In this document: positions 15,025-32,718 of the stretch, one piece after another
Position numbering within the stretch: position 1 is the stretch's first letter
Layout of the letters: every line of letters starts with the position of its first letter
Assembly: GCA_903904515.1 (NCBI GenBank)
Contig: CAIVCR010000088.1
Span: 1 to 34,558 of the forward strand
Length of the DNA stretch: 34,558 bases
Reading direction: 5' to 3'
Source: an uncultured Bacteroidia bacterium
GTDB lineage: Bacteria; Bacteroidota; Bacteroidia; Bacteroidales; Prolixibacteraceae
Notes under the pieces: model-generated
What the model was told of the DNA's origin: nothing
Database searches by the model: none
What the model saw: the letters and a program-made list of their open reading frames with translations, nothing else
Position numbers and translations under genes: made by a program

Positions 15025-16323
15025 CTAAAATGTAAATGCAACTTCAAATTCCAGCTGATTCATTTTTAAATTAATTGTTTGATTGGGCACCATATTTCCT
15101 GCCGCGGCCTGAGTGGCATCGAAATCCATCGGGTTATAACCCGTAACACTGCCCGGAAGCGCATAAACCAGCGCAAAATGAACGGCACTTTTGGATGCAC
15201 CAAGTTGTTTTGAAAATCCGACAGTAAGGTGATCTGTTGTGACTGCAGGAGCAAGGATATTAAACAGCGTCTGTGTAGTTTGAACCGGTTGATCGCTGTG
15301 AGAATATCCACCCCTTAATGTCCAGCCATTACTTCCGGCAAATTCGATACCTGCTTTATAGACGTTGATATCCTTCCATCCAAAACCGGCACCCTTGTCA
15401 GAACCTAGTGGAGCAGTTGCTAAAGCCTGGGGATCAAATTCATTGGAAACAGATGCCACATCGGTATAATTGATTCGCTTGTAGTCTGCCAGGATAGCCC
15501 ATTTTTTATTGAGTTCCCAGGCTAAACCAGCTGAGAAGTTTGACGGAATATCAAAGTTCCCCTTTTCTGCAAAAAGACCGGCATATTTACTGAATTTGGC
15601 CATTGTGATCTTAGGCTGATAATTTACACCTAAGGTTAATCCTTTTGCCAGCTGTCCCATGTAGCCGAGTTTGAATCCAAGACCTGTTGCGTTATCAGTA
15701 CCATTTCCGCTAACTTTGGTTGGATCCTGAGACATTTGGCTAAATGAAGCTACCCCTTTTGCACTGAAATATTGATATACTACTAAAGCCGTCACACCAA
15801 GACTTTGTTTTTCAGCAATCTTCCGCGAATAGGTGAGTCCAAGAAACATCTGTGCCAGGTTAATTCCGGTACTTTCTGAACTTGGATCATAAAAGGTTTT
15901 GGTTTTGTAATCGGTATTCATCCCTCCATTTCCAAAAAGTGTTGCGGAGAAACTGCTCTTTTCATTGAGCATCCAGTTGGCTCCAAGTGTTGGTTCCAAA
16001 AAGGCTTTTGAACCGCTTTCAACCGTTCCGGGGGTCAATCCCATGGTGCCCTGCATCCCGGATGGGTTACCCGATATGGTATATTCCCTGTTGGGATTAA
16101 AAATTTCAAACCCCACCAGGTATTTTTTGCCCAGAAATACATTTCCTGCAGGGTTCCCGTTGATCAATCCGTTTTTGTACCATGCTGTACCGGCCCCCGC
16201 TAATCCCTTATTTTGAGCGCCATAGCCTACCCCAAAATAGCCGTCAGTTGCATATGCCTTTTCAGTTAGACCCATGCCAGTCAGTACAAGAATCAAAAGA
16301 GCAATTCTAAAAATTGTTTTCAT
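15025..16323 (-). CDS. OmpP1/FadL-family outer membrane transporter
   Basis: Outer-membrane beta-barrel for uptake of hydrophobic molecules. From ATG 16323 the protein has 432 residues with a clear signal peptide (MKTIFRIALLILVL to AYA). The mature N-terminus starts DGYFGVGYGAQNKGLAGAG, the hatch motif of the family with the tell-tale 'G...N.GLAGAGTA' pattern and then INGNPAG. Alternating strands follow, and the chain ends in a C-terminal phenylalanine (EFEVAFTF), as expected for an outer-membrane barrel. The longer ORF to 16371 lacks a signal at its very start. It is the last gene before a block of sulfur genes on the same strand, so it might pass hydrophobic sulfur species. That is inference. 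Fatty acids or aromatics are alternatives. Confidence 0.88.
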   Translation of the reverse strand: MKTIFRIALLILVLTGMGLTEKAYATDGYFGVGYGAQNKGLAGAGTAWYKNGLINGNPAGNVFLGKKYLVGFEIFNPNREYTISGNPSGMQGTMGLTPGTVESGSKAFLEPTLGANWMLNEKSSFSATLFGNGGMNTDYKTKTFYDPSSESTGINLAQMFLGLTYSRKIAEKQSLGVTALVVYQYFSAKGVASFSQMSQDPTKVSGNGTDNATGLGFKLGYMGQLAKGLTLGVNYQPKITMAKFSKYAGLFAEKGNFDIPSNFSAGLAWELNKKWAILADYKRINYTDVASVSNEFDPQALATAPLGSDKGAGFGWKDINVYKAGIEFAGSNGWTLRGGYSHSDQPVQTTQTLFNILAPAVTTDHLTVGFSKQLGASKSAVHFALVYALPGSVTGYNPMDFDATQAAAGNMVPNQTINLKMNQLEFEVAFTF

Positions 16324-16457
16324 AATATAAGGTAAATTAAGTAATGAAATAAAACGTGTTGCGAGATGCAATTATTATTTTCCCTGGATATACAGAGCTA
16401 AATATATATGTTGTTTATATCTTTTGAATAGTGAATTTTATACATCCTGGGGTATGA

Positions 16458-17054
16458 TCAACATCCACCTCCTGCAGAAGCCCCTTTGCGAACTGGTATC
16501 ACCGCTTCGCCTTTCTTCAAAGTCGGTGCAGAAACCGGTAAATTTATTAGTTCTGATTTCCCATGAATTGCCGCAGTGTCTGCAAGGGAGATCTCCGTTG
16601 TGGCAAGATCAGGGAGGCTAAATTCATTGATTGGATTTATTCCTCCTTTCAATAGTTTCACATTTTTGTACCCCAATTGTCGCAACAAAAACAGCGGAGC
16701 GGTAGCCTGCAATTGGTCATTTCCATACAATACCGCCTCCTTCCCGCTGTTCAACAGGTTGTCGAACAGTTCGAGCGATGGTTTGTCCAATAGTTGGCGT
16801 ATGGGTATATTTATAGCACTTAGGGGGTGTCCTTTGGAATACAATTCCGCTGAGCGGATATCGATCAATTGTTTACCGGCAATATTTTTTATTTCAACTT
16901 CAATTGACCGGTCATTCATCACCTTTATTGTTTCATTGGCATTAAGCAGATAATGCGGCGATTTAGGTCTGAAAACAAAGGCCAATACGACAATTACCAC
17001 TGCTAATCCGAGCAGGCTGAGCCAGAGTGAATTGGTTTTGATGAAACGGTTCAT
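16458..17054 (-). CDS. Membrane-anchored rhodanese-like protein with C-terminal GGGC
   Basis: 198 residues. A transmembrane anchor (about 9-28) puts the rest in the periplasm. The single rhodanese fold covers about 55-145: the first block is QLIDIRSAELYSKGHPLSAINIP (split here as LIDIRSAELY and HPLSAINIP), then AVLYGNDQL at 108-115 and NVKLLKGGINP. The active-site loop normally starts with cysteine in this place. Here it reads YGN, so classical sulfurtransferase activity is not expected. A linker rich in P, K and A leads to a C-terminal SAGGGC, with the cysteine as the last residue. The neighbouring gene at 17201 has the same architecture. The pattern suggests sulfane sulfur carriage on the tail. 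Confidence 0.85.
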   Translation of the reverse strand: MNRFIKTNSLWLSLLGLAVVIVVLAFVFRPKSPHYLLNANETIKVMNDRSIEVEIKNIAGKQLIDIRSAELYSKGHPLSAINIPIRQLLDKPSLELFDNLLNSGKEAVLYGNDQLQATAPLFLLRQLGYKNVKLLKGGINPINEFSLPDLATTEISLADTAAIHGKSELINLPVSAPTLKKGEAVIPVRKGASAGGGC

Positions 17055-17142
17055 TTTATTGGTGTTTGTGGTTTAACTGTAAAACAACTGCATAATTATC
17101 ATAATAAATCACTATTATCGCAGGAAATGGAAATCAGTATTA

Positions 17143-17176
17143 AAAGATTCTTCGCTACACTTCGTTCAGAATCTTT
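17143..17176 (-). terminator. Hairpin between the two rhodanese-like genes
   Basis: The arms aaagattct (17143-17151) and agaatcttt (17168-17176) form a 9-bp stem. On the minus strand it lies 24 nt after the stop of the 207-residue rhodanese gene. The loop contains cttcg, as in a common type of dispersed repeat, so it may be a repeat unit used as a terminator or attenuator. Confidence 0.55.
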
Positions 17177-17200
17177 GATTTTTCGCTATGATTATATTTC

Positions 17201-17824
17201 TTAACAGCCACCACCGGCAGCTGCTTTAGGGGCCTTTCTGATAACCTGAACCTTTTCCTTAACGGTTACAGCAGCTGAAGTGCTCGCAGTTTCACCCGTT
17301 CCAATTAAAAACATTCGGGCAGCCTTTCTGAAACTGACCAAATCAAGGTCGGCTGTGGAAGGGGTTCCGGAAACGGGTTTTTCGCTGACAATGGTTGTGA
17401 ACCATTCATTCATTCCCCCTTTCATGATATAGATTCTTTTTAAGGCATATCGCGAACAAAGGAGCCAGGCTTTTTCAGCCGTGAGATCGGCATTGCCATA
17501 TAGCACTTTATCCTTTCCTGGCTGACTGAAAAGTTCCATATTCGTTTTAGAAAGGAGCGAATCGGGAGGAATATTGAGTGATCCTGGTAAGGCGAAGGTT
17601 TTATACTGATCTGCCTTTCGCAGGTCGATCAGCATTAAGGTAGGATCGTTTTCAATAATCCGGTGAGTAACCTGATCAACAGTTAGATAACGCGATTTTT
17701 GCACTGCCTCTGAGAGAAGTACCTTGGGGTCAGTCTCCTTTAACTCGTTTTTCTTTGGAAGGATAACCAGTCCTAAGGCCAATACAATCAGGAGAATAGC
17801 AAGTATCGTATATTTTCGTTCCAT
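17201..17824 (-). CDS. Second membrane-anchored rhodanese-like protein with C-terminal GGGC
   Basis: 207 residues, with an N-terminal anchor (about 5-23) and one rhodanese domain (about 48-145): LMLIDLRKADQYKTFALPG, then KVLYGNADL at 106-114 and IYIMKGGMNEWF. The canonical catalytic cysteine is replaced by G110 in YGN. C123 lies in the next helix, where it would be buried. The tail (165-207) is low complexity and ends RKAPKAAAGGGC. The tail matches its neighbour at 16458-17054 in the last four residues and in the basic VIRK/IPVRK preceding segment. It lies 12 nt downstream of a YeeE/YedE gene, so transport and carriage are linked. Duplication of one ancestor is likely. Confidence 0.87.
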   Translation of the reverse strand: MERKYTILAILLIVLALGLVILPKKNELKETDPKVLLSEAVQKSRYLTVDQVTHRIIENDPTLMLIDLRKADQYKTFALPGSLNIPPDSLLSKTNMELFSQPGKDKVLYGNADLTAEKAWLLCSRYALKRIYIMKGGMNEWFTTIVSEKPVSGTPSTADLDLVSFRKAARMFLIGTGETASTSAAVTVKEKVQVIRKAPKAAAGGGC

Positions 17825-17836
17825 AATTTGAGTTGT

Positions 17837-18430
17837 TTAATATTCAATCTTCTTTATGTTCTTCTGAATCCGCCCGGCACCCACGAACATGCCAATAGCG
17901 GCTAAAACAAGGAAGAATGTAAACAGTTCGGGTGAAATGCCAAAGACTGTATTAATCATTTTGGCCCCCTGTGAACCACTATAGTACATATTTTCGAAAA
18001 TCGGGAACGATTCGGAAAACAGAAACACGCCGATAAACATTCCTCCGAAGAAAACAAGGCCGTCAATGCGACCAACTGCGGTAGCACACAAACTTGTTCC
18101 GGGGCAAAATCCACCCATTGCAAAACCAATTCCCATAATAATTCCACCCACAATTGCGGAAGTCAAAAAGGTTGGCTGTATGTACAGGGTTGAAAAATCG
18201 ACGAGTCCGAGGTAACTAAAATAGAGCAAACCTAAGGATGCAACTATGGCTGCGGTAAAGAATACCTTCACCACAACGAAGTCATATCCAAAGAATGTGC
18301 CGATTATCTTACGTGATGAAGAAAAGCCTGATGCTTCGAGGGCAAAGCCAAAACCCATGCCAAGGATGACGGCAAACAGATTGTCCCATGCGGGGGAAAC
18401 CATTCCTGATGAGATGATAGATCCGATCAT
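17837..18430 (-). CDS. YeeE/YedE family sulfur transporter, half-protein 1
   Basis: Inner-membrane protein of the DUF395/YeeE-YedE family, whose characterised member TsuA takes up thiosulfate through a line of cysteines. 197 residues with about six helices. The signature GFAMGGFCPGTSLCATAVG (102-120) has C109 and C115 in the transport path. The N-terminal half-motif GFGFALEASGFSSSRK (26-41) lacks a cysteine. The family's full-length members have about 350-400 residues, so this and the following 175-residue gene would form the two halves. It lies 20 nt downstream of the other half. TusA, a common partner, is absent. Confidence 0.88.
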   Translation of the reverse strand: MIGSIISSGMVSPAWDNLFAVILGMGFGFALEASGFSSSRKIIGTFFGYDFVVVKVFFTAAIVASLGLLYFSYLGLVDFSTLYIQPTFLTSAIVGGIIMGIGFAMGGFCPGTSLCATAVGRIDGLVFFGGMFIGVFLFSESFPIFENMYYSGSQGAKMINTVFGISPELFTFFLVLAAIGMFVGAGRIQKNIKKIEY

Positions 18431-18450
18431 AATATTTTAACTTAAAATGG

Positions 18451-18978
18451 TTAAATCCAGTTTTTACGAAATATCCAGGCTGCGACAAAAGCGGTACCGA
18501 AGATGGCGATCATGGTGATATAACCACCAAACGACAGTACTGCCATGCCGCTCAGTGCGGCACCACTTGTACAACCCCGGGCCAGCTGAGAACCAAATCC
18601 AAAAATCAATCCGCCTGCCAGGGCAAAGACCAGTCTTCGACGGGAGGTGATTTTAGGTGAGTGTTCAACTTTGAATTTCAAACGGTTGAAAATAATTCCC
18701 GAGAAAAAGGCTCCGGCAAGAACTCCCAGCACTTCAAATACAAGCCAGTTGCTCATTGGCTGTTTGTCCCCACCGGCAAACTGACTATAGTAAGCTGAGT
18801 TAGCTACATGCCCCGGAGCAATTACATTCACAGTTGCTGCAACGCTGTTTTTTACAGCCCCGCTGGCACCAAGTCCGCGCCCGGAAATATAAAATGCCAG
18901 GAAAAGAAAGGTTCCCAGTATCACTCCACCCAAATATGGATTAAGGTAATACGATCCGTCGTTTTTTATTTTTTTCAT
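18451..18978 (-). CDS. YeeE/YedE family sulfur transporter, half-protein 2
   Basis: 175 residues with about four or five helices. The signature GFGSQLARGCTSGAALSG (127-144) contains C136, equivalent to one of the conserved cysteines of TsuA. The loop at 40-75 (ending FAGGDKQP) is probably periplasmic. Together with the 197-residue protein it makes a heteromeric transporter, similar to the split PmpA/PmpB proteins. It is the first gene of the run YeeE-YeeE-rhodanese-rhodanese on the minus strand and is separated from psrC by 203 bp with repeats. Likely substrates are thiosulfate or another sulfane sulfur compound. Confidence 0.87.
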   Translation of the reverse strand: MKKIKNDGSYYLNPYLGGVILGTFLFLAFYISGRGLGASGAVKNSVAATVNVIAPGHVANSAYYSQFAGGDKQPMSNWLVFEVLGVLAGAFFSGIIFNRLKFKVEHSPKITSRRRLVFALAGGLIFGFGSQLARGCTSGAALSGMAVLSFGGYITMIAIFGTAFVAAWIFRKNWI

Positions 18979-19181: not shown

Positions 19182-20123
19182 TTAATAGAGAAACCTCGTA
19201 ATTTGTCCTGCTTCAACCATAAGAAATCTGAAAATCAGACCACCTAACAGTACCAGAATAGCCGGTACATAAATTGGCACTTTGAATCCTTTCAATTCGA
19301 AAATTTCGAGAACAGCGGGGAAGATCAGCCCAAGAAGGACCACGAAGGTGAAAAATGGGGCAGTGAATTTTCCCCCCAGGAAGAGGTTAGCGGCATTGAT
19401 CTGAGCTTCTGATCCGGCAAGAAATCCCATAAGGAGGTGGACGATAAAGAAGAGTTCAATGACGATAAGCAGAATGTCGATTCTACCCATGATTTTCCGC
19501 TCTTTATGATCTTTGCTGAGCATGATGATTATTGCTGCCGCGGTCGACATTCCGGAGACCAGAAAAAGGGGCCCCAGTATAGAAGTGTTCCACAACGGTC
19601 GTGCATTGAATGCCGAAAGTAAAATCCCTGTATAAATCCCGAGGATAACAGCATATATAGCCATAGGCCAGGCAATCCATAGCCTGTATTTTATCAGCCA
19701 GGATTCAGCGGTTTTCAGAAAATCGAATTTCCAATCCCAATTTGGGAAGACCTCCCTCACATAGCTGGCCGACCACAAAATGGAAATCGGTGTAATGATC
19801 ATTAAAACCCACGCGCCCCAACCCATCGGAGACTCGAGTCGGATTGTGGTATAAAGCTGCCAGAAAAATAGTTTATGTTTCAGATCGAGGAAAAGCATAA
19901 ATAGCCCGAAAACCAGCAGAAATGGAACCAGCAACGGAGCCTTTTTAACTGTAGCTGTCATTTTATTCTCCTTGCCAAGAATTGTAAACACACCGGCAAA
20001 AAAAAGGATTCCTGCAGCAACTCCACCCAGAAAAAGGTAGATCGGAATCTGCCAGTGCCAGATATTCAGATAAGGATCAATATTGGGGATGTTGCGCCCG
20101 CTTACAAATAATTCTTCTCTCAT
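19182..20123 (-). CDS. psrC: NrfD/PsrC-type membrane subunit of the molybdoenzyme
   Basis: Quinone-interacting membrane anchor of a CISM-type complex. 313 residues with eight or more helices, starting with WHWQIPIYLFLGGVAAGILF (22-41), the classic NrfD/PsrC first helix. Further helices follow, including VPFLLVFGLFMLFLDL and FLVSGMSTAAAIIIML, and the chain ends QITRFLY. It transfers electrons between quinone and the PsrB iron-sulfur protein without heme. It sits 18 nt downstream of psrB in an A-B-C operon. The name follows the polysulfide reductase family. The true substrate could also be thiosulfate or tetrathionate. Confidence 0.9.
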   Translation of the reverse strand: MREELFVSGRNIPNIDPYLNIWHWQIPIYLFLGGVAAGILFFAGVFTILGKENKMTATVKKAPLLVPFLLVFGLFMLFLDLKHKLFFWQLYTTIRLESPMGWGAWVLMIITPISILWSASYVREVFPNWDWKFDFLKTAESWLIKYRLWIAWPMAIYAVILGIYTGILLSAFNARPLWNTSILGPLFLVSGMSTAAAIIIMLSKDHKERKIMGRIDILLIVIELFFIVHLLMGFLAGSEAQINAANLFLGGKFTAPFFTFVVLLGLIFPAVLEIFELKGFKVPIYVPAILVLLGGLIFRFLMVEAGQITRFLY

Positions 20124-20141: not shown

Positions 20142-20675
20142 TTAAACCAGGTAAAATATCTGAGGTTTCGTGCCGGCTTCGGGAGCCAGTGACTTGAATT
20201 TCCTGTTTTTCAGTACATTTACGATTTTGGAGTTCTGATCGTCGAGATCTCCAAAATAGATGCAGCTCGTTGGACAAACGCTAACGCAGGCCGGATCATT
20301 CCCTTCGCGTACACGGTGAATGCAAAAGGTGCATTTGTCAACATAACCATCCGGATGTGAATAACGCGCATCGTATGGGCATGCCTCAATACATGCTCCG
20401 CAGCCAATACACTTGTTATGTTCCACAAGTACAATTCCACCCTCTTCGAAATGACTTGCCCCTGTTGGACAACATCTTACGCATGGGGAATTGGCACAAT
20501 GGTTACAGCGTTCTGACCGAAGTTCAATACTTACGTTTGGATAGGTTCCGTCAACTACTTCGACTACCCAGTCGCGGCAAAATCCAACCGGTACATTATT
20601 CTCGGTCTGGCAGGCTACCACACAGTCGCTGCAGCCCACACATTTTCGGGTATCAATAGCCATTCCGTACCTCAT
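20142..20675 (-). CDS. psrB: Four-cluster ferredoxin subunit (PsrB/PhsB/NrfC type)
   Basis: 177 residues with 16 cysteines for four [4Fe-4S] clusters: CVGCSDCVVACQTENNVP near the N-terminus, CNHCANSPCVRCCPTGA, CIGCGACIEACPYDARY, then CTFCIHRV to ACVSVCPTSC. It lacks a signal peptide and would be carried across the membrane with the Tat-exported PsrA partner. Its ATG overlaps the TGA of psrA by four bases (ATGA), so translation is coupled. It relays electrons between PsrC and PsrA. Confidence 0.94.
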   Translation of the reverse strand: MRYGMAIDTRKCVGCSDCVVACQTENNVPVGFCRDWVVEVVDGTYPNVSIELRSERCNHCANSPCVRCCPTGASHFEEGGIVLVEHNKCIGCGACIEACPYDARYSHPDGYVDKCTFCIHRVREGNDPACVSVCPTSCIYFGDLDDQNSKIVNVLKNRKFKSLAPEAGTKPQIFYLV

Positions 20676-22930
20676 GATTTAGCCTCCTTTTTTGCTGCGT
20701 CTTTAATAAATGTGACAAAGTTGCCGCGCATACCGGTTCCACCCATTATCGGGTCGATCTTTACATCTGAAATTAACTCGGTATCGTTAACCCCCCGTCC
20801 GAAAGCGTATGTTAATGGTTTATGGTGGTGTCCGAATCCATGAACGATGTAAACCGAGTCCCAACGGATTCGCTCTGTGATTCTCACTTTAACCGAAAAG
20901 TTTGAAACTACACCAGCCTGGTTTTTTAGAAAAACATACTGATCTTTTTTCAGTCCCCAGAGTTCAGCAACCTGAGGATTGATCCAAACCGAGTTTTCGG
21001 GCATCAATGCCACGAGGTTGCGGTTGTTGGCTGTCCGGCTGAAGGTGTGCATCGGTGCCCGTCCATAAATCAACCGGTAAAATCCCTCTTCAGGCTGAGG
21101 GTGAAGAGTCAGTTTTGGCATGGGATCAAAGCCGGCTGCTTCGAGTTCGTGTGAATAGAGTTGTATTTTCCCGCTTGCAGTTTTGAATTTGTAATCCGAT
21201 CCGGGCAGAATATATACTGGTGTTTTACGTTCGAACTTCTTTAAGCCGATCTTTTCCATTTCACTGAGCGAGGTGCCTGCCTGTTTGAGTTGCCAGTCAA
21301 GGACCTCCTTGAAATCCTTATAGTTATAGTAGGCTCCAAGACCCAGTCGTTCGCCGATCTGCTTGGAGATCCACCAGGCGGGTTTCGTTTCGTACATTGG
21401 CTCAACCGCCGGCATCCGAAGTGCGATTGTTGGCTCGCGATGGGCTGTGGCCCGTAAATCATCATGCCGCTCGAGATAGGTACACTCAGGTAAGACTACG
21501 TCGGCATAGCCGGTAATCTCCATCGGCATTGTATCCACAACAACGAGTAAATCGAGCGATTGCATCGCCTTCATCAATTGTTCCTTCAACGGAATCGATA
21601 CGATCAGGTTTGTGCCAGAAACAATCCACCCTTTTATAACATGCTCATTCCCTTCCGCAGGAATTGAAGCTTCTATGATTGTATTTGTAACTGCCTCTTT
21701 TGCAAATGGATATCTGCCTTTTAGAGTGTCCTGCCACGACCAGGCTGGTTTTGGGTATGCAGGATGCGGAAAATCGGGAATCTTAATCCCCTCCTTAAAG
21801 AAGATACCACCCCTGTTTCCCCAGGTTCCCAGTAATGCGTTTAAGATAGCGATTGCGCGTGAACGTTGCACATCATCGCCATACCACGAGGTATGTCTCC
21901 CCGGATGGATGATTGCTGAAGGGGCAGCATTAGCCATCTCCCGGGCAGTCTGGCGGACGAGTTCCGGTTTTAGGGTAGTTATCCCGTAAGCCCATTCAGG
22001 CGTATAATTTTTTACATGCTCCTTAAGCTCATTGAATCCTTCTGCATATTTGTCAACATACTCTTTGTTATAAAGCTCATCGTATATGAGAACATGAATC
22101 CATGCCAGCAGAAGTGCCAGATCTGTTGATGGTTTGATTGGTAGCCAATATTTCGATTTGCTGGCGGCAGTCGAGAGGCGTGGATCTACTGTTATTATGA
22201 CCGCGCCGCGGTCAATGGCCTCCGACATCTCCTGCACCTGTCCGTTGTGCATATTCTCGCCGATATGTGATCCGATCAGAACCAGGCACCGTGTGTCCCG
22301 TATATCGGTTACCTCGGGACTGCTTACCGATTCGCCGAAGGTGAGTTCAAAACCGGTATCCCGTGGTCCGCGGCATTGGGCAAATGATGGTGCAGCAACA
22401 TTGTTTGATCCGAAGGCGTTGAGCAAATGGGTGAAATATTTTCCGGAACTGCCGTGGTTGAACAATGCCATACTCTCAGGCCCGTGCTTTTCGGCAATCG
22501 CCTTCATCTTTGTGGCAATATAGTCAAGCGCCTCATCCCAGGTTGCTGTTCTGTATGTTTGCTCGCCGTTTTTAGTAATTCGTATTAATGGTGTTTTAAG
22601 GCGATCGGGATCTGTAAACATCCCAACGCCACCAGTGCCACGCGGACAAAGCCTTCCGTTGCACTGAGGGTCATCGGCATTCCCAATGATTTTTTGAATC
22701 TGGCCATTTTCTGTAACATAGGACCATCCTGCGCATTTCCAGAAACAAACTTCACAATAGGTTGGCACTCTTCTAACTCCTCTGAAATTCTTCAAATCGG
22801 TTTTTGGCGCAGAGGCTCCTGCAACCCATTGAACAGCACCACCGGTTAAGACAGTCGCTCCTAATCCTAATGAACAAATTTTAATAAAATCCCTCCTCGT
22901 ACGCATCATTCTGATATTTAGGGTTTTCAT
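20672..22930 (-). CDS. psrA: Molybdopterin-guanine dinucleotide oxidoreductase, PsrA/PhsA type
   Basis: Periplasmic catalytic subunit of the DMSO reductase family, 752 residues. The Tat signal is RTRRDFIKICS (10-20). The proximal [4Fe-4S] ligands are C59, C62 and C66 in the CEVCFWKC segment and C95 in LCPRG. The molybdenum ligand is C186 in SFAQCRGP, the cysteine type found in polysulfide and thiosulfate reductases and not the serine of DMSO reductases. Later, bis-MGD contacts include VSGTNLIVS and VDTMPMEITGYADVVLPECTYLERHD (split by position). The chain ends in the MGD-binding domain (RIRWDSVYIVHGFGHHHKPL). Neighbouring YeeE and rhodanese genes favour a sulfur substrate, though arsenate or tetrathionate reductase relatives cannot be excluded. 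Confidence 0.92.
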   Translation of the reverse strand: MKTLNIRMMRTRRDFIKICSLGLGATVLTGGAVQWVAGASAPKTDLKNFRGVRRVPTYCEVCFWKCAGWSYVTENGQIQKIIGNADDPQCNGRLCPRGTGGVGMFTDPDRLKTPLIRITKNGEQTYRTATWDEALDYIATKMKAIAEKHGPESMALFNHGSSGKYFTHLLNAFGSNNVAAPSFAQCRGPRDTGFELTFGESVSSPEVTDIRDTRCLVLIGSHIGENMHNGQVQEMSEAIDRGAVIITVDPRLSTAASKSKYWLPIKPSTDLALLLAWIHVLIYDELYNKEYVDKYAEGFNELKEHVKNYTPEWAYGITTLKPELVRQTAREMANAAPSAIIHPGRHTSWYGDDVQRSRAIAILNALLGTWGNRGGIFFKEGIKIPDFPHPAYPKPAWSWQDTLKGRYPFAKEAVTNTIIEASIPAEGNEHVIKGWIVSGTNLIVSIPLKEQLMKAMQSLDLLVVVDTMPMEITGYADVVLPECTYLERHDDLRATAHREPTIALRMPAVEPMYETKPAWWISKQIGERLGLGAYYNYKDFKEVLDWQLKQAGTSLSEMEKIGLKKFERKTPVYILPGSDYKFKTASGKIQLYSHELEAAGFDPMPKLTLHPQPEEGFYRLIYGRAPMHTFSRTANNRNLVALMPENSVWINPQVAELWGLKKDQYVFLKNQAGVVSNFSVKVRITERIRWDSVYIVHGFGHHHKPLTYAFGRGVNDTELISDVKIDPIMGGTGMRGNFVTFIKDAAKKEAKS

Positions 22931-23325
22931 AGTTATTTAAGACCGCTTATTGTGCTTGCGCTCTATGATTAAAGCCAAAAGTATTTGATTGATTTTTGAT
23001 ATACAAATAGCAATTCGTGACCCATGGATTTGTAATTAAATGATTATTAGATATATATGACTTTGTGATTTTGCGAGTGAAAATCAAATATGGGTTTAAC
23101 ACACTGAAATACAGCAGTTTGTAAAACCTTATTTATATTTATTATTAGTTATTTAAATTCTATTAAAATACTGAATATCAAGATTATATGGTTTCATTGA
23201 TATTCTCACAATGGATTATGATATGTATCATAAAAAAAGCTGATGTAAAGCATATTTTGTTAAATCAGGCTGATGATGATCAAAAATAAATTGTAGTAGC
23301 TTTGGAAGCCTCAAGGTCGTGCCAA
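22931..23325. other. Divergent regulatory region between psrA and the Rieske gene
   Basis: AT-rich, no gene. It contains the psrA promoter (22976-23007) and a -7 box TAGCTTTG for the Rieske gene (23297-23304). An inverted repeat with 7-bp arms, TGATTTT (23066-23072) and AAAATCA (23080-23086) separated by 7 nt, lies between them and could be an operator for a dimeric regulator such as the Crp/Fnr protein encoded at 27047. It does not match the Escherichia coli FNR or CRP consensus. Confidence 0.5.
22976..23007 (-). promoter_or_regulatory. Promoter of psrABC
   Basis: On the minus strand TTTG (23007-23004), a 20-nt spacer and TACTTTTG (22983-22976) form a complete match to the Bacteroidota consensus. 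The predicted transcription start is near 22969, leaving a leader of about 39 nt. Confidence 0.85.
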
Positions 23326-23745
23326 ATGGAAACTCAAAAGCGGATATCCCGGAAAATATTTATTCGATGGACAACTCGTGTGATCGTTGGTCTTACTTTA
23401 TGGATATGGTACCGACTCTCCAGGTTTCAAAATGAACAGGAAAAGGGTATTGAATTTGCTCATGGCAATGATATTCCATTGGGAATCAGTTATTATGGAA
23501 GGTATTATCTTTTTCGGACCAAGGATTCGATTCGTGCTTTTTCAACAACCTGCACCCATGCTGGTTGCCGGATAGGGCGGGGGAGCGGTGATACCCTTCA
23601 ATGCAGTTGTCATGGCTCTCAGTTTGAAGGAATGAGCGGCAAACCATTAAAGGGCCCGGCGATCAAACCGCTGCGGGAACTTGAATGCAGGTTCAATGGT
23701 AAAACGGGTCAATGGATCGTGAAATTTAATTCCGGAATAGTCTAA
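23326..23745 (+). CDS. Rieske [2Fe-2S] protein
   Basis: Electron-transfer subunit of a cytochrome bc/b6f-like quinol-oxidising complex. 139 residues from ATG 23326. A membrane anchor spans about residues 11-27. The cluster motifs are CTHAGC and CSCHGSQF, with both histidine and both cysteine ligands present and the disulfide cysteines C and C in place. The ORF is open upstream to 23302 but a -7 box at 23297-23304 puts that start before transcription begins. The fused cytochrome b gene starts 310 bp downstream in the same direction, so the two may form one complex. It is divergent from psrABC. Confidence 0.9.
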   Translation: METQKRISRKIFIRWTTRVIVGLTLWIWYRLSRFQNEQEKGIEFAHGNDIPLGISYYGRYYLFRTKDSIRAFSTTCTHAGCRIGRGSGDTLQCSCHGSQFEGMSGKPLKGPAIKPLRELECRFNGKTGQWIVKFNSGIV

Positions 23746-24055: not shown

Positions 24056-26758
24056 ATGGCTCTACGTAAATTTAAAAAGCTGATACAATTTGATACTGCC
24101 GGTTGGATTGCGCTAACCGGTTTGCTGATCTGCGTAATAAGCGGAGTTTTACTGGCCATTCCGTATGATTTTACCCGTTCGTACCAGTCTGTTGCTGCGA
24201 TACTCCTATTTAATCCTTCGGGTGTTTTTGTGAGGAATCTCCATTATTTGAGTGCACAGCTATTCTTTGTTTTTACAATTCTGCATATTTACGATCACCT
24301 CAGAAAATCGACTGAAACAAAAATCAAGAAAAAAAGTACTTGGTTGATCTTGTGTATGGTTATCGCCATTATTGGTTATGAAATGATTTCGGGGTTTATC
24401 CTCAAAGGTGATGCAGGCGGGATCCAGGCTCGTCGTATTGTCGCCTCGCTGCTCGAATCGATCCCTTTTGCAGGTCAAATGTTGAGTTCTGCACTAACCG
24501 GGACCGATGAGAACTGGCAGATCGTTTATATTCAGCACGTGGCTGCCGGAACAATCTTTTTGTTTATTGCAATTTACGAGCATGTCAAAACAGTCTGGCC
24601 CAAACAAAGAACCTTTGTTCTGATTTTCGCAATGCTGCTCCTGACGAGTATACTTTTCAGGGCACCGTTAGGCCAGGTTGAGAGCAGTCAGATCAAAGGG
24701 CCATGGTTTTTTATCGGGATACAGGAAATCTTACATCTGACAAGCCATCCTTTTTATGTTATTTCACTTATAGGAATTGTTTTTTTGATGTTTTACCTTC
24801 TTCCGCGGATGTCGCCTAAAATCAGGCATATTTTTAAATTTTGCCTTTTGACTTTTAGTATTTTATATTTAGCAATGACCTTTTTTGTCCTGTTATTCCG
24901 TGGTGAGAACTGGCAACGGCAAGGGTGGAACGATTTCAAACAATCGGAGGAGAGGCTCCTGATTTTTGATCCGGTCAATTTGGTTAGGAATGACCGTTCA
25001 ACAGTAACCAATGAGGGTCAAAAAAAGGAGGGTTGCCTGGTTTGCCATGGTGGAATGACCGGTTTGTCAGAGTCACACAAACCTTCGATAATGGGTTGTT
25101 TTGCCTGCCACAAAGGGGATCCGTTTTCTACCGATAAATTTGTCGCACACCGGAATATGATAATGGTTCCGGGGAATTTTTCAAATGTCCGGCAGACCTG
25201 TGGGACTCAAAATTGTCACCCCGATATTGCCGGAAGGATATTGAATTCGCTGATGACGACCCAGAGCGGGATTATAGGTGTTGATAAATTTGTATTTGGT
25301 GAATCACCATCGTTAAATGACACATTTCAGGTTAAAAATCTGGGCCATTCAGCGGCCGACACCCATCTGCGTAATCTTTGTGCGGGTTGCCACCTGGGAA
25401 ATGATAAGCTTACGACAGGAAATTCAGCCTGGCTCGAACGGGGAGGAGGATGTAATGGCTGCCACCTTCATTACAACGATCAGGCATTAAAAAGTATGAG
25501 CAGGATGCAATCAAAGTTTCCGACCCCAGGTTTCGAGGTGCATCCCACCATCGATATTCAGGTTTCAAATGACCGGTGCAAAAGCTGTCATAGCCGGTCG
25601 GGTCGTATTTCGCTCAATTATGAAGGGTGGAATGAAACAACCCTCATAGCTACAGCGGTCACCGATTCGGTTCATCAAAAGGTGTTGCCCGATGAGAGGG
25701 TGGTGGAATATGTTCAGGCAGATATTCATCACCTGAAAGGAATGGCCTGTATTGATTGCCATGGATCTTATGAAATCATGGGTGATGGTAAACACGCGAC
25801 TCATAAGGAGGATGCAGTACATGTTCAATGTATTGACTGCCATCCTACAGGGAAACCAAATTCGCTGATTATTTCCAATCTTCCCGATCGGGAATCACAA
25901 TTGATCGCCTATTTGCGAAAGTGTGATCCGAAAACGCGCGTGGTTATTACCTCCAGTGGTAAATATCCGTTGATGAATTCAAGGGTCGATTCAACGGGGA
26001 ATATTTCGTTTACGGATAAGCTAACGGGCAAAAAACACCTCTCTAAACCAGCATTACCTGTTTGTACAAAGGGTAAAGGGCACAGCCGGCTGAGCTGCGA
26101 GACATGCCATACTTCATGGGTGCCGCAGTGTGTCGGGTGTCATAATGTCTTTGAAAAAGAGACAAAAGGTTTTGATCTGCTGACCAATAAACAGACCATC
26201 GGAACCTGGGTTGAATTTGCAGGGAAGAATTTTGCCCGCGCCCCAGTGCTGGGGATCAGTGAAAAGATTGAAAGCAAAGTAGTGACGGCTATGCCTGGAA
26301 TGGTTATGACAATCGACAGGGAATCCTTCGGAAAGGGTGAGGGTAATAAATTTCATCGGTTGTATGCTCCCTCCTCTGGGCACACCACTGTTCGTGAAGC
26401 ACGCAATTGTAAATCATGCCATAACAACCCGTTGGCCATTGGATTCGGAGAAGGCGAATTGAGTTACCGGATTTCCGGGAATGCTGGTAAATGGAGCTTT
26501 GAACCCAAATTTGCGATAAATGAACATGACTCACTTCCTGAAGATGCGTGGACCGGATTTTTAAAGGAGGCAAAGGGCCTAAATTCGACCCGAAGCTGGC
26601 TGAGGCCATTCACCGTTAAGGAGCAGCAGCACATTCTGGAAGTTGGGAGTTGTCTCACCTGTCATGACGGAAAATCCAAAGTTATGGAGCGGGCGCTGGA
26701 GGATTATTCTAAAATCCGTTTGGAGCGAAAAAGACAATGTGTTTTGCCAAGTTGGTAA
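24056..26758 (+). CDS. Fusion of b6-like cytochrome b with a twelve-heme cytochrome c domain
   Basis: 900 residues. The N-terminal 290 residues are a cytochrome b with about seven helices. Heme ligand pairs are H63/H77 (13 residues apart) and H161/H176 (14 residues apart). The 14-residue spacing is that of cytochrome b6 and not of mitochondrial cytochrome b. The quinol-site PEWY motif is replaced by GPWFF at 215-219. From residue 320 a periplasmic domain carries eleven CxxCH sites (first cysteines at 327, 348, 442, 466, 508, 565, 592, 681, 692, 785, 866) and one CX4CH (C382 to H388). It would accept electrons from quinol and pass them outwards or to a partner. The upstream Rieske protein suggests an alternative bc complex. 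Fusion at this scale is unusual. Confidence 0.93.
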   Translation: MALRKFKKLIQFDTAGWIALTGLLICVISGVLLAIPYDFTRSYQSVAAILLFNPSGVFVRNLHYLSAQLFFVFTILHIYDHLRKSTETKIKKKSTWLILCMVIAIIGYEMISGFILKGDAGGIQARRIVASLLESIPFAGQMLSSALTGTDENWQIVYIQHVAAGTIFLFIAIYEHVKTVWPKQRTFVLIFAMLLLTSILFRAPLGQVESSQIKGPWFFIGIQEILHLTSHPFYVISLIGIVFLMFYLLPRMSPKIRHIFKFCLLTFSILYLAMTFFVLLFRGENWQRQGWNDFKQSEERLLIFDPVNLVRNDRSTVTNEGQKKEGCLVCHGGMTGLSESHKPSIMGCFACHKGDPFSTDKFVAHRNMIMVPGNFSNVRQTCGTQNCHPDIAGRILNSLMTTQSGIIGVDKFVFGESPSLNDTFQVKNLGHSAADTHLRNLCAGCHLGNDKLTTGNSAWLERGGGCNGCHLHYNDQALKSMSRMQSKFPTPGFEVHPTIDIQVSNDRCKSCHSRSGRISLNYEGWNETTLIATAVTDSVHQKVLPDERVVEYVQADIHHLKGMACIDCHGSYEIMGDGKHATHKEDAVHVQCIDCHPTGKPNSLIISNLPDRESQLIAYLRKCDPKTRVVITSSGKYPLMNSRVDSTGNISFTDKLTGKKHLSKPALPVCTKGKGHSRLSCETCHTSWVPQCVGCHNVFEKETKGFDLLTNKQTIGTWVEFAGKNFARAPVLGISEKIESKVVTAMPGMVMTIDRESFGKGEGNKFHRLYAPSSGHTTVREARNCKSCHNNPLAIGFGEGELSYRISGNAGKWSFEPKFAINEHDSLPEDAWTGFLKEAKGLNSTRSWLRPFTVKEQQHILEVGSCLTCHDGKSKVMERALEDYSKIRLERKRQCVLPSW

Positions 26759-27919: not shown

Positions 27920-28507
27920 TTATTCTTCCGACAACAAATACCCAAAATCGGTTGGGGTATTGATGTTTAGGAATAAATTGGGTGAATTGCACGGGATTTG
28001 TGCATCAACGGCGATAAACTGGTGAGATGCCGACCGGATGCACTCATTTAACCTGAAGTTTTTGTTATCGATAAACTCCTTTAAAATACCCAGAGATGAT
28101 TTCTTATAGATGCCACAAAGGGGTTCAATTTGTCCGTTTTCATGCATTGGGACAGTAATTGCATAATCCGAAGATTTCGCGACAAGAAACCCGATCATTG
28201 AGGTACTTATCAGTGGCATATCGCAGGAAAGAATAATATTAAGCTCTGTTTCGGATCGTTTGAGACACGAATAGATTCCAATAATAGGTGCCTGATCAGT
28301 TAACTCGTCAGGCCACACTTCACATCCGGTGAATTCGCAATTGGGATTGTTGGAACTGATGATAACCTTGCTGCACAATGGTTTCAATGCATCGATTGAA
28401 TATTCAACCAATGATTTTCCGTTCAGTTTCATGAGCGATTTATCTTCGCCCATTCGACTGCTGCGGCCGCCGGCAAGAACTATTCCGGTTATTTTAGGAG
28501 TTGTCAT
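27920..28507 (-). CDS. mobA: Molybdenum cofactor guanylyltransferase
   Basis: Transfers GMP to Mo-molybdopterin to make the MGD cofactor needed by PsrA-type enzymes. 195 residues. The nucleotide-binding signature GIVLAGGRSSRMGEDKSLMK is at 8-27. Other family motifs are PDELTDQAPIIGIYS and the metal-binding ILSCDMPLIS. It is 295 bp downstream of the other Moco genes, with a repeat element in between, and on the same strand. Confidence 0.95.
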   Translation of the reverse strand: MTTPKITGIVLAGGRSSRMGEDKSLMKLNGKSLVEYSIDALKPLCSKVIISSNNPNCEFTGCEVWPDELTDQAPIIGIYSCLKRSETELNIILSCDMPLISTSMIGFLVAKSSDYAITVPMHENGQIEPLCGIYKKSSLGILKEFIDNKNFRLNECIRSASHQFIAVDAQIPCNSPNLFLNINTPTDFGYLLSEE

Positions 28508-28532
28508 AATTTTTTATTTTACTCAACAATGG

Positions 28533-28621
28533 AAACCCCGCCAGGGTTTCTGAGTCGGTACTGTTTTGTTTACCCCCCAGTTTGCACTGGGGGGTATTTA
28601 CGGAGAACTCCTGTCGGAGTT
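28533..28621. repeat. Three-hairpin dispersed repeat between mobA and mosC-mogA
   Basis: Perfect stems are aaaccc/gggttt (28533-28549), taccccccag/ctggggggta (28571-28596) and aactcc/ggagtt (28606-28621). I recognise the aactcctgtcggagtt block as a common Bacteroidota intergenic element of REP type. The rest of the 28508-28802 gap is AT-rich with no gene. Confidence 0.7.
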
Positions 28622-28802
28622 TTACAAACTTTTAAAATATCACATTAATTAGGTGATATTGCCAATTTATAAATGCCTATTTAATTTAATTTCAATTTGT
28701 TAAAAGCCAGTGTCCGGACTAAAAATGATTAAATAAAATGGTTAATTTAATCTGAAATATACCTAAAAGTCTAAACCCTAATCGCCTAATCTCCTTCCCT
28801 CC

Positions 28803-29735
28803 TCAATGTTCATCAATATTATAAAGCATCCTGAAGGAGTGTTCCACAGTTTTGAAGATTTCGTCGCTATACTCTTTCACTGCCTTTGGATTGCCCGGTA
28901 GAGCATAGATCAGCGTCTTTCCGGCCACTCCGGCTATGCTTCTGCTGATGAGGACATTGGGAAACTGCATTCCGTATTTTACCCGGATCATCTCCATGAT
29001 TCCAGGGATCTCCTTGTCGAGAAGGGCTTTAACTACGTCGGGAGTGATATCGCGCGGACCAATTCCTGTGCCACCTGTGGTGAAGATGATGTCCGTATTT
29101 TTTTCAATCAATGATTTTAAAAGCTCTTCCAGAAGTATCTCATCATCCGGGATTCCCGAATTTTCGATGGAAACTGAACGACCCGCTTCAGCAAAGAAAG
29201 ATTCGGTTAACTTCTTTAAAAGCGGACCGCTCTTATCCTCGTAAATCCCCTGGCTGGCTCTGTCGCTGAGGGTAATAATATGGGTCCGGATTATTCGGGG
29301 ATGATATTCGAGAAGGTCGCCTTTTTTAAGTTCACCATCCTGTATTACCCTGCAGAAGATCCCCTCTTTGGGCATCACGCAATTGCCGGTCTCCTGGTAG
29401 ATGGCGCAGTTTGTCCCATGGCATTTTTTCCCGATCTGGGTAACTTCGAGGAGTAGATTTCCGCAAACCAACCGGTCGAACGGTTTCATCTGATAGAGTG
29501 GGAACCCTTCTGTCGTTATATTTTCGGCAAATTCGCCATAGGTCAGTTTTCGTCCGATTTCCTGTTCCGCTTTATCAATACTTTCTTTGCCAAGCAGACT
29601 TACCTGCCTGTGCCATTTCCCCGCATGGGCATCACCTAAAATTCCAATATTAGTCAGGGAAATTTTATCAACCGGGATTTTTATGGTCCCCTTCCATTCG
29701 GAGATATTTACCGATAGTACTTTTATCTTTTCCAT
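28803..29735 (-). CDS. Fusion of a MOSC domain with MogA-type molybdopterin adenylyltransferase
   Basis: 310 residues. Residues 1-145 form a MOSC domain (NIGILGDAHAGKWHRQVSLL, then GEFAENITTEGF and LLEVTQIGKKC) as in sulfur-carrier or Mo-cofactor handling proteins. Residues 150-310 are MogA/MoaB-like (IITLSDRASQGIYEDKSGP, then FTTGGTGIGPRDITPD and ALPGNPKAVKEY), which activates molybdopterin by adenylation for molybdate insertion. It starts 1 nt after moaC stops, so it is part of the operon. The domain fusion puts cofactor activation and sulfuration-type function in one chain. Confidence 0.93.
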   Translation of the reverse strand: MEKIKVLSVNISEWKGTIKIPVDKISLTNIGILGDAHAGKWHRQVSLLGKESIDKAEQEIGRKLTYGEFAENITTEGFPLYQMKPFDRLVCGNLLLEVTQIGKKCHGTNCAIYQETGNCVMPKEGIFCRVIQDGELKKGDLLEYHPRIIRTHIITLSDRASQGIYEDKSGPLLKKLTESFFAEAGRSVSIENSGIPDDEILLEELLKSLIEKNTDIIFTTGGTGIGPRDITPDVVKALLDKEIPGIMEMIRVKYGMQFPNVLISRSIAGVAGKTLIYALPGNPKAVKEYSDEIFKTVEHSFRMLYNIDEH

Positions 29736-29736
29736 G

Positions 29737-30195
29737 TTAACCAGGTATATTGGTTTTGGTTTTTTCGACCAGTTTTATTGCTCTGATAACCATCGTTTTA
29801 TCGACCGCTTTGCACATGTCGTAGATAGTGAGTAGTCCTACACTTACTGCTGTCAGTGCCTCCATTTCAACACCGGTAATACCGGTGCACCTCACTTCGC
29901 TTTGAATTGAGACACCATCTTCCAGCAGGGCCGCCTTTACCAAAACTTTGCTTAATGCAATGTTATGGCAGAGCGGAATAAGTTCCGCGGTTCGTTTGGC
30001 TGCCTGGATCCCTGCAATTTCAGCAACAGTGAGGACGTCCCCCTTTTTCATAAGGTTCTGTCTGATCAGATTTAGTGTATCGCGAGAAAGGGAAATCGTT
30101 CCTGAGGCTTTTGCGATCCTCAATTGGATCGTTTTATCCCCAACATCTACCATGCGGGCATTCCCTTCTGAATCGGTATGCGTTAATTTTTCCAT
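29737..30195 (-). CDS. moaC: Cyclic pyranopterin monophosphate synthase
   Basis: Converts the MoaA product to cyclic pyranopterin monophosphate. 152 residues of standard length. Motifs are MVDVGDKTIQLRIAKASG, then AAKRTAELIPLCHNI and the CTGITGVEMEALTAVSVG stretch with the conserved E and M residues. It is 8 nt downstream of moaA. Confidence 0.97.
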   Translation of the reverse strand: MEKLTHTDSEGNARMVDVGDKTIQLRIAKASGTISLSRDTLNLIRQNLMKKGDVLTVAEIAGIQAAKRTAELIPLCHNIALSKVLVKAALLEDGVSIQSEVRCTGITGVEMEALTAVSVGLLTIYDMCKAVDKTMVIRAIKLVEKTKTNIPG

Positions 30196-30203
30196 GTTTT
30201 GTA

Positions 30204-31004
30204 TTATCCTCCAATGTTATAAAAACTTCCTTTGGTATTCAAACATCCATTCAATGGTTTAATGTTCAGGGCGGCCAGAAGCGCTTTTTCAGCTCCCAGT
30301 TCGCGGACCGAAAATTCATCTTCATCGAAAAGGCAGGGCTTAACCATTCCATTGGCGGTAAGCCTCAATCGGTTGCACAGGTGGCAATTTCCCCCTTCGC
30401 CTCCTTCGACAACTGAAAATTCACCGGTCTCGAGATTCATCTGGTGGATAAACCGAACCTGAAGCTTATTCAGTCTGCAAAATTCTTTGACCTGTTTCGC
30501 ATCGCCTTCGTTGGATGACTTATAAACGACACAATTGATTTTTATGGGTTCAAGTCCGGCTCTTTTTGCAGCTTCGATCCCTTTCAGCACTCTGTTGATA
30601 TCTCCGCCGCGGGTGATCTCCTTAAATTTCTCCTCGTTTGTTGTATCAAGACTAATATTCACACGTTTTAAACCGGCTTCTTTAAGCGGAAGGGCGAGTT
30701 GCTCAAGCAAAATTCCGTTTGTTGTCATGGAGAGATCTTTGACACCTTCAATCGCCGCAATCATCGAGACCAGTGTCACGATATCCTTTCGAACCAGGGG
30801 TTCTCCTCCGGTGATGCGAAATTTGTCGACTCCCAGCGAAACGGCTACCTTTACAACTTCAGTAATCTCTTCAAATGACAGAATATCCCTGTGATCCATC
30901 AGGGTAACACCCTCTTCGGGCATGCAATACCTGCACCGGAGATTGCACCGGTCGGTAACTGAAATTCTCAGGTAGTTGATGTGTCGGTTATAGCGGTCGT
31001 ACAC
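30204..31004 (-). CDS. moaA: GTP 3',8-cyclase, short form
   Basis: Radical SAM enzyme that starts molybdopterin synthesis from GTP. 266 residues, against about 320-340 in most MoaA proteins. The SAM cluster ligands C20, C24 and C27 lie in DRCNLRCRYCMP. The C-terminal cluster ligands C207, C210 and C224 lie in GGNCHLCNRLRL and VKPC. The C-terminal GG (NIGG) is present. The missing part is the link between the TIM barrel and the second cluster, so it is compact and not truncated. Its start overlaps the end of moeA by 17 nt. Confidence 0.95.
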   Translation of the reverse strand: MYDRYNRHINYLRISVTDRCNLRCRYCMPEEGVTLMDHRDILSFEEITEVVKVAVSLGVDKFRITGGEPLVRKDIVTLVSMIAAIEGVKDLSMTTNGILLEQLALPLKEAGLKRVNISLDTTNEEKFKEITRGGDINRVLKGIEAAKRAGLEPIKINCVVYKSSNEGDAKQVKEFCRLNKLQVRFIHQMNLETGEFSVVEGGEGGNCHLCNRLRLTANGMVKPCLFDEDEFSVRELGAEKALLAALNIKPLNGCLNTKGSFYNIGG

Positions 31005-32163: not shown

Positions 32164-32164
32164 C

Positions 32165-32701
32165 TTATGTTTGTTTTAAGGACCATTGATTATCAGTTAT
32201 TTCAATTGTATTGGTGTCAAAATCAATTTTCTCGCCATTTAAGGTGATCACCCGATCGGCAAGCTGAATCAGCTTTTCTGCACGCTGTTTAATTTCACCG
32301 GGAACGTTATTTTTCATCATAAGAAAAAGACCCGGAATAACATGGTGCCGTAATCCCCCGGATTCGCAAATCAACATAGAATCCGAAGGAATGAAGTTGA
32401 GAATTTCACCGAAAGCTTCCTCCAGAAATTCATCAGTGGTCATTATGAAATATGAAATTGTCGCGCCGGCTTTAAGCATCAGTGAACTGTCTTTTCCGGT
32501 TGTAGAGTTGGTCTCCTCCGCAATATAAAAGTTTTCATTGTCGGCTAAGACTTTTCCGCTTTGGATGTTTTTATGGAAGTGCGGGGTTATTTTTAAAGCA
32601 ATAATCGATTTTTCAGGGCTAAATCTCCGTATAATTTCACAGGCTATGGTCGTCTTTCCCGTGTTTCTCCCGGTTCCGGCAATAATCAACAGCTGTGGCA
32701 T
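32165..32701 (-). CDS. MobB-like P-loop protein of molybdenum cofactor synthesis
   Basis: 178 residues from ATG 32701 (MPQLLIIAGTGRNTGKTT). A start at 32716 is possible too. The P-loop GTGRNTGKTT and the C-terminal half resemble MobB, a GTP-binding helper of MGD synthesis, but the sequence departs from Escherichia coli MobB (no typical DTD motif that I can see). Residues 98-125 have DSMLICESGGLRHHVIPG, reminiscent of dethiobiotin synthetase-like or cobyrinate amidase-like P-loop folds. It is coupled by position to moeA (1 nt) and to the transporter gene (2 to 17 nt). Confidence 0.72.
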   Translation of the reverse strand: MPQLLIIAGTGRNTGKTTIACEIIRRFSPEKSIIALKITPHFHKNIQSGKVLADNENFYIAEETNSTTGKDSSLMLKAGATISYFIMTTDEFLEEAFGEILNFIPSDSMLICESGGLRHHVIPGLFLMMKNNVPGEIKQRAEKLIQLADRVITLNGEKIDFDTNTIEITDNQWSLKQT

Positions 32702-32718
32702 CAGTAAATTTCCCATGC

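Follow-up and report, generated by a model that had tools for sequence, protein, structure and literature searches.

Paired rhodanese-fold proteins with a C-terminal cysteine arm beside split YeeE transporters in Bacteroidota: candidate carriers of sulfane sulfur

SoxY has a C-terminal arm of sequence GGCGG. In DsrC and TusE, which are cytoplasmic, a C-terminal arm carries the functional cysteine close to its tip, Sud works through the cysteine of its loop, and QbsE is a carrier that forms a thiocarboxylate at a Gly-Gly end. The inner partner of YeeE transporters is known, with TusA as the known inner acceptor family; how sulfur gets to the outer mouth of YeeE has, to our knowledge, no answer for most organisms. 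Excerpts of published reports add that the SoxY arm swings (PMC11237559), that thiosulfate moves through StYeeE by way of three cysteines, YeeD giving a "fourth cysteine" inside (PMC11073785), that the halves of split YeeE keep only the second and third of these cysteines and are without the first (PMC11582611), and that the Desulfurivibrio Psr operon encodes an exported three-domain sulfurtransferase (PMC12142623).

We have analyzed a contig of 34,558 nucleotides (the window) from an uncultured bacterium of the Prolixibacteraceae. On its minus strand the gene order is psrA-psrB-nrfD-yeeE_C-yeeE_N-rhdB-rhdA, followed by a gene for a FadL-type porin, and psrA to rhdA apparently make up one operon, as read from the sequence. 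The features are listed below.

17201..17824, minus strand: RhdB, 207 aa, with N-terminal membrane anchor, rhodanese fold without catalytic Cys, K/P/A-rich linker and C-terminal GGGC (Pfam, AlphaFold, Foldseek)
17204..17215, minus strand: codons of the terminal Gly-Gly-Gly-Cys of RhdB (sequence; conservation in relatives)
16458..17054, minus strand: RhdA, 198 aa, paralogue of RhdB with a layout identical in kind and C-terminal GGGC (Pfam, pairwise alignment)
16461..16472, minus strand: codons of the terminal Gly-Gly-Gly-Cys of RhdA (sequence)
17837..18430, minus strand: YeeE_N, PmpB-like first half of a YeeE/TsuA transporter, Cys109 in GGFCPGT (profile match; half assigned after an excerpt of PMC11582611)
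18451..18978, minus strand: YeeE_C, PmpA-like second half of the transporter, Cys136 in RGCTSG (Pfam and NCBIfam profile matches)
19182..20123, minus strand: membrane subunit of NrfD/PsrC type (PF03916, 2.8e-40)
20142..20675, minus strand: 4Fe-4S subunit of PsrB type (profile matches)
20672..22930, minus strand: molybdopterin subunit, PsrA/PhsA-like, with Tat-type signal RTRRDFIK (profile matches; PhsA equivalog 486.9 against a cut-off of 694 bits)
15025..16371, minus strand: outer-membrane porin of FadL/OmpP1 type, downstream of RhdA (PF03349, 6.9e-18)
23302..23745, plus strand: Rieske protein, divergent from the operon (profile match)
24056..26758, plus strand: cytochrome b / multihaem cytochrome c protein, divergent (profile matches)

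The original prediction described two paired, membrane-anchored rhodanese-fold proteins that lack the active-site cysteine and end in GGGC, and both genes are present as described, with profile and fold in agreement. The Pfam Rhodanese domain is matched by RhdA (1.2e-13) and RhdB (1e-11), which are 32% identical over 155 columns and each carry an N-terminal hydrophobic segment. By both fold and profile they belong to the Rhodanese family (PF00581); neither has the catalytic loop cysteine of a rhodanese sulfurtransferase, since both read LYGN at the active-site loop, with G in place of the cysteine. The AlphaFold model of RhdB (mean pLDDT 88.9) is confident in the rhodanese domain; confidence is low over the final ~27 residues, where the blocks score 55, 69 and 57. 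Foldseek with this model returned mostly single-domain rhodanese-like structures, the top entry being titled a protein of unknown function, and RhdB also shows a weak sequence match (8.4e-4) to 1qxn, titled "sulfide dehydrogenase", which we take to be Sud. NCBIfam held no family above cut-off for RhdA or RhdB and PHROGs no match at all. The predicted lack of a named family agrees with the Pfam, NCBIfam and PHROGs scans and with the literature, where among the papers listed, mostly open-access, no title or abstract opening describes a rhodanese with a terminal cysteine beside YeeE. In the window genome (3.57 Mb, 82.9% complete), GGNGGNTGY followed by a stop occurs at 23 places (22 + 1), among which only those of RhdA and RhdB are the ends of open reading frames of at least 60 aa, and the three other rhodaneses found there by a PF00581 search are without a Cys end.

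RhdA and RhdB resemble SoxY in the idea of a periplasmic carrier with a cysteine among glycines on a C-terminal arm, which may also be mobile here, with a low-confidence tail in the RhdB model and a conserved G-C end; unlike SoxY, they have a rhodanese fold and the cysteine at the very end. The SoxY domain PF13501 has no Pfam match in either protein, and an accessory role to SoxYZ was rejected on the occurrence of SoxY in just 1 of 61 related genomes (G046, where RhdB is also present); SoxY was not found in the window genome. TsuB/YeeD, the partner of TsuA/YeeE, is likewise a small protein or fused domain that presents a cysteine to YeeE (excerpt of PMC11073785), but it is cytoplasmic, of the TusA family and with a CPxP motif, whereas RhdA and RhdB are exported rhodanese-fold proteins with the cysteine in the tail, and neither matches the TusA domain PF01206 in Pfam. 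A cysteine placed at or near the tip of a C-terminal arm, functional in DsrC/TusE and predicted to be so here, is shared with DsrC/TusE, which differ in being cytoplasmic and of another family (PF04358, with no Pfam match in RhdA or RhdB, is a separate downstream gene in some loci). With Sud and the periplasmic rhodaneses beside Psr they share a rhodanese fold near Psr, but the loop cysteine through which Sud works is gone. The transporter halves of the window are of the PmpA/PmpB sort, with the two matching cysteines; the excerpts of PMC11582611 and PMC10812762 contain no mention of a tailed rhodanese. The terminal thiol may carry sulfane sulfur, as in SoxY.

We then examined tail conservation with a profile blind to the tail, covering just the rhodanese core (residues 40-150 of RhdB), and dropped proteins with identical last 120 residues. 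The loci came from overlapping samples (relatives, contig profile search, phylum), so that all counts are of distinct proteins and not of independent events; the genome searches sampled Bacteroidota only, and the contig profile search, represented by the best 80 of 470 loci, spans other phyla. A GC or GCx end was found in 37 of the 38 rhodaneses fused to YeeE_N and in 211 of the 217 lying no more than 1.7 kb from YeeE_N on its strand, and in 8 of the 42 elsewhere. Orthologues retain the tail, and its absence from them, which the original prediction had named as a refuting outcome, did not occur. The seven exceptions at YeeE are a fused protein ending in GGLCS (L248), one ending in FQC (L245), two frameshifted genes with the GC end readable in another frame or fragment (L246 and L049), a second copy without a tail (L023) and two multi-domain rhodaneses (L106 and L245). 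The eight tailed rhodaneses away from YeeE are two at a contig edge (L045), two in L120 and one each in L082, L101, L109 and L114. Among control loci with ordinary rhodaneses away from YeeE, picked from weak matches, a terminal cysteine was present in 0 of 18; one more locus picked in this way, L174, turned out to be linked to YeeE and has the tail. In the best 80 of the 470 loci, 161 of 2394 open reading frames of at least 80 aa end in GGC followed by zero to two residues, and 160 of these 161 are rhodanese matches. Plasmids gave no tblastn match.

The tail shows synonymous variation, with GGA, GGT, GGC and GGG all in use and the cysteine encoded by TGT in 130 cases and TGC in 100. This indicates that selection acts on the protein and, together with the fact that only two open reading frames of at least 60 aa end in this way in the window genome, rules out chance or a DNA-level artefact as the source of the tail. 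The linker varies in sequence among family members; K+R make up 33% of residues -18 to -4 (the 15 residues before the last three) as against 12% overall, and the arm has a median length of 64 residues from a GGxxW-type motif to the end (138 unfused proteins in which the motif was found). Paralogues at the same locus have similar tails, sharing 3.93 of the 5 residues before GC (85 pairs; shuffled mean 1.96 and maximum 2.35 in 2000 shuffles). Much of this likeness is due to shared ancestry, since the score against the nearest other locus is already 3.35; the likeness within a locus modestly exceeds it (higher in 41 loci and lower in 20).

Two details of the predicted architecture hold for the window proteins and not for the family as a whole. 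The YGN loop is present in both RhdA and RhdB, but the loop residue family-wide is mostly G, S or A; a cysteine occupies the catalytic column in 9 of 259 domain rows of the tail set versus 31 of 41 in tail-less rhodaneses. Similarly, both window proteins end in GGGC, but only the final G-C is near-constant: the 256 distinct tail-bearing proteins, which were chosen for a GC(x) end, end in GGC (219), EGC (21), GGCx (11), MGC (4) and DGC (1). The predominance of GGC would fit a carrier of the QbsE kind, in which the cysteine is cleaved off and the bared Gly-Gly becomes a thiocarboxylate. Activation would then require periplasmic ATP, and EGC, MGC, DGC, FQC and GGLCS ends occur; these ends without Gly-Gly speak against such a carrier, to which we give almost no credence. 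It is also very unlikely that the terminal cysteine is a structural or modified residue (disulfide, lipid or metal) instead of a sulfur carrier. Another cysteine past residue 30 is available in 96 of the 210 unfused tail proteins, but the remaining 114 have none, the cysteine is surrounded by sulfur enzymes, an extra residue after it is tolerated in 11 of the 256, and the sequences inspected by eye have no hydrophobic stretch after the linker. The last two observations speak against a sorting or lipidation signal.

A few tailed proteins have a cysteine in the domain itself. Exported-looking rhodaneses that end in GGC and have a readable Cys-containing catalytic loop are located at L082:1352-1870, L101:3717-4616, L114:1958-2863 and L109:7082-8212; those of L082 and L109 have lipoprotein-like starts, and the L109 protein shares its end, EEEGGC, with both adjoining inactive paralogues. 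Five RhdB-type proteins (L072, L080, L062, L148 and L149), all of them tailed, place a cysteine in the catalytic column (FYCNDD, LYCED, LYCEN) but do not have the usual CxxGxR loop.

In 27 YeeE_N-rhodanese fusions, the mean K+R per loop before the sixth helix is 0.04, 1.96, 0.07, 1.00, 1.00 and 1.78, that is, 1.96, 1.00 and 1.78 in the presumed inner loops and 0.04, 0.07 and 1.00 in the outer ones, with helices taken from a structure model of mean pLDDT 71.2, which is too weak for placing the arm. This alternation agrees with a rhodanese in the periplasm and an N-terminus on the outer side. A lipobox-like start occurs in three tail proteins by the pattern used (L008, L082 and L084), and 65 of 66 distinct PsrA proteins have a Tat-type motif, the exception containing masked letters. 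The anchor of unfused RhdB is flanked by K+R of 2.41 before and 2.58 after, so that charge alone leaves its topology undecided. The fusion charges, the lipoprotein-like forms and the Tat-type PsrA together support the view that the tailed rhodaneses are exported and membrane-tethered on the periplasmic side.

The recurrence of YeeE beside tailed rhodaneses, which had been put forward as support for the prediction, is evident from both directions. Starting from the rhodanese, YeeE_N was found in 79 and YeeE_C in 78 of the best 80 of 470 loci. Conversely, a YeeE_N search of 296 genomes of the phylum gave 57 matches in 51 genomes, and in all 53 strong ones (E <1e-30) a rhodanese-type gene is either fused to YeeE_N or adjoins it. 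This partner was picked up by the core model in 52 of the 53 (the fused part in L207 is too diverged) and ends in GC(x) in 50 of the 53 (the exceptions are L245, L246 and L248). The four weak matches, of other YeeE types, have no rhodanese within the ~4 kb fetched. In the window, the Sulf_transp domain is split into two halves at 17837-18978 (profile positions 13-151 and 177-309 of 310) with one conserved cysteine each, in keeping with YeeE/PmpAB. The distinct homologues that were aligned all keep Cys109 of YeeE_N (173 of 173) and Cys136 of YeeE_C (169 of 169). Tailed rhodaneses thus have a near-constant partner in the split YeeE pair, with one genome lacking it: in G356 (locus L120, 99% complete) the gene order is psrB-nrfD-rhdB-rhdA, both rhodaneses end in VEEGGC, and neither YeeE_N nor PF04143 gave a match at E 0.001. 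YeeE is thus not required for the tail, and its standing as an obligate partner is weakened. TusA shows no association as a matched inner partner: in 61 relatives, RhdB is present in 30, TusA in 31 and both in 12, where ~15 would be expected (by eye).

This pairing raises the possibility that the tailed rhodaneses are dedicated feeders of YeeE and work only with it, the terminal thiol being a mobile "first cysteine" of the relay in place of the outer Cys22 of TsuA. Besides the near-constant pairing and the fusions, 170 of 173 YeeE_N have no cysteine in the 105 residues before GFCPGT, and the excerpts mentioned above point the same way, in the outer cysteine, relay and fourth-cysteine idea (PMC11073785) and in the two cysteines left to the split halves (PMC11582611). 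However, four YeeE forms without an adjoining rhodanese (L250-L253) also lack a cysteine in that region (by eye), which weakens the specific claim of a replaced Cys22, and G356 is tailed with no YeeE found. We consider an exclusive feeder unlikely; a carrier shared between YeeE and an enzyme fits both the fusions and G356.

The module occurs with three unrelated enzyme types. The first, PsrABC/PhsA-like, is that of the window, whose own molybdopterin subunit falls below the NCBIfam PhsA equivalog cut-off and is PsrA/PhsA-like only. The best 80 of 470 loci contain NrfD in 74, PsrA in 64 and PsrB in 60, counts that are limited by contig ends. For all distinct YeeE_C taken together, NrfD lies immediately upstream of 95 of the 134 unfused and of 1 of the 38 fused ones, within stretches that were often short. 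In the second setting, an octaheme c-type cytochrome cluster takes the place of PsrABC in all 13 wide fused loci (L184-L196); the member scanned belongs to the tetrathionate reductase family (567.7 bits, cut-off 375). A cytochrome b cluster is also present in 12 of the 13, and its one scanned member is similar to thiosulfate reductase cytochrome b. The third is a sulfurtransferase: in L247, of the MGC form, YeeE_C is preceded by what reads as the gene of a sulfurtransferase with two domains and a signal peptide, and L202 has a broken sulfurtransferase remnant there (PF00581 match of its piece), with neither Psr nor octaheme cytochrome within 16.5 kb. The predicted co-occurrence with PsrABC therefore holds as a frequent association but not as a constant one, and PsrABC as an obligate partner is ruled out by the octaheme settings and L202. 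Judging from the named families, the settings probably have sulfane sulfur chemistry in common (thiosulfate, tetrathionate, polysulfide). One fused locus, L141, has NrfD upstream, unlike L184-L196.

The enzymes themselves could be the recipients: the arm, like Sud of Wolinella, would bind polysulfide sulfur, which PsrA or the octaheme cytochrome would then receive and reduce, with YeeE as a side route. A Tat-type PsrA adjoins, G356 retains Psr and the tails without a YeeE being found, and the weak match of RhdB to 1qxn agrees with such a role. Against this, L202 has YeeE and a tail without Psr or octaheme cytochrome in 16.5 kb, the fusion partner is YeeE_N, and a Psr subunit is the best match for none of the 256 tail proteins. 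A donor to respiratory enzymes seems decidedly improbable.

The explanation that we prefer, at slightly better than an even chance, is that RhdA and RhdB are membrane-tethered periplasmic carriers of sulfane sulfur, whose terminal thiol would shuttle between a periplasmic S-S bond enzyme and split YeeE; the loading, transfer and direction of sulfur are predicted. A former sulfur-transfer domain, having lost its catalytic cysteine, would serve as a scaffold or docking head, and the flexible, strongly basic linker would bear the G-C with the working thiol at the arm tip. This thiol may take up sulfane sulfur as a persulfide or thiosulfate adduct and carry it between split YeeE and the enzyme, which is the PhsA/PsrA-like Mo enzyme in the window and the octaheme tetrathionate-reductase-family cytochrome or sulfurtransferase in relatives. 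The arm would meet the YeeE channel on its outer side, where it could supply the first cysteine that split YeeE is without, and the two conserved cysteines would relay sulfur across the membrane. A shuttle between enzyme and transporter accounts for the YeeE fusions and for the persistence of the tail with Psr alone. The four tailed rhodaneses with an intact loop, the five RhdB-type proteins with a catalytic-column cysteine, G356 with no YeeE found and the unassociated TusA stand as counterpoints. Somewhat short of an even chance is the broader proposal of a new class of periplasmic sulfur carrier, in which a rhodanese scaffold has its working cysteine no longer in the loop but at the end of a basic C-terminal arm, and arm-fed group translocation of sulfur with split YeeE is coupled to at least three unrelated periplasmic sulfur enzymes across Bacteroidota.

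Many Bacteroidota carry, adjoining a split sulfur transporter, a tailed inactive rhodanese that probably passes sulfur between partners outside the inner membrane. A tethered arm with a single conserved thiol, fused to YeeE in many species, is a simple possible answer to outer sulfur delivery, and would tie import to the chemistry of thiosulfate, tetrathionate or polysulfide in the periplasm. The family is large and unnamed, its members currently being labeled just "rhodanese" by profile libraries.

Several neighboring genes recur to different extents. In 10-12 of the best 80 of 470 loci, genes for a PF07992 flavoprotein (sulfide:quinone-reductase-like, by reading), DUF1641, DsrC and DsrE-like proteins are located downstream of the module (one member each scanned); the DsrC/DUF1641/DsrE-like genes at L069:14068-14379 and L101:13464-15006 hint at cytoplasmic sulfur handling. 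Of 20 wide loci, 9 contain a MerR-type gene cluster, and these belong to the first and second settings. The FadL-type porin only tentatively belongs with the module, few relatives showing a porin by BLAST (L036, L128 and L138). Among the same 80 best loci, 38 have a Rieske homologue on the strand opposite to YeeE and 34 a homologue of the divergent cytochrome b/multihaem gene. The latter gene in the window, 24056-26758, encodes a cytochrome b joined to a multihaem portion, which is similar to ExtM, a cytochrome of the selenite/tellurite operon (245 bits, cut-off 800). Beyond a Crp-like regulator gene, 27920-32716 reads as a putative molybdenum-cofactor cluster with MobA-, MOSC/MoaB-, MoaC-, MoaA-, MoeA- and MobB-like genes.
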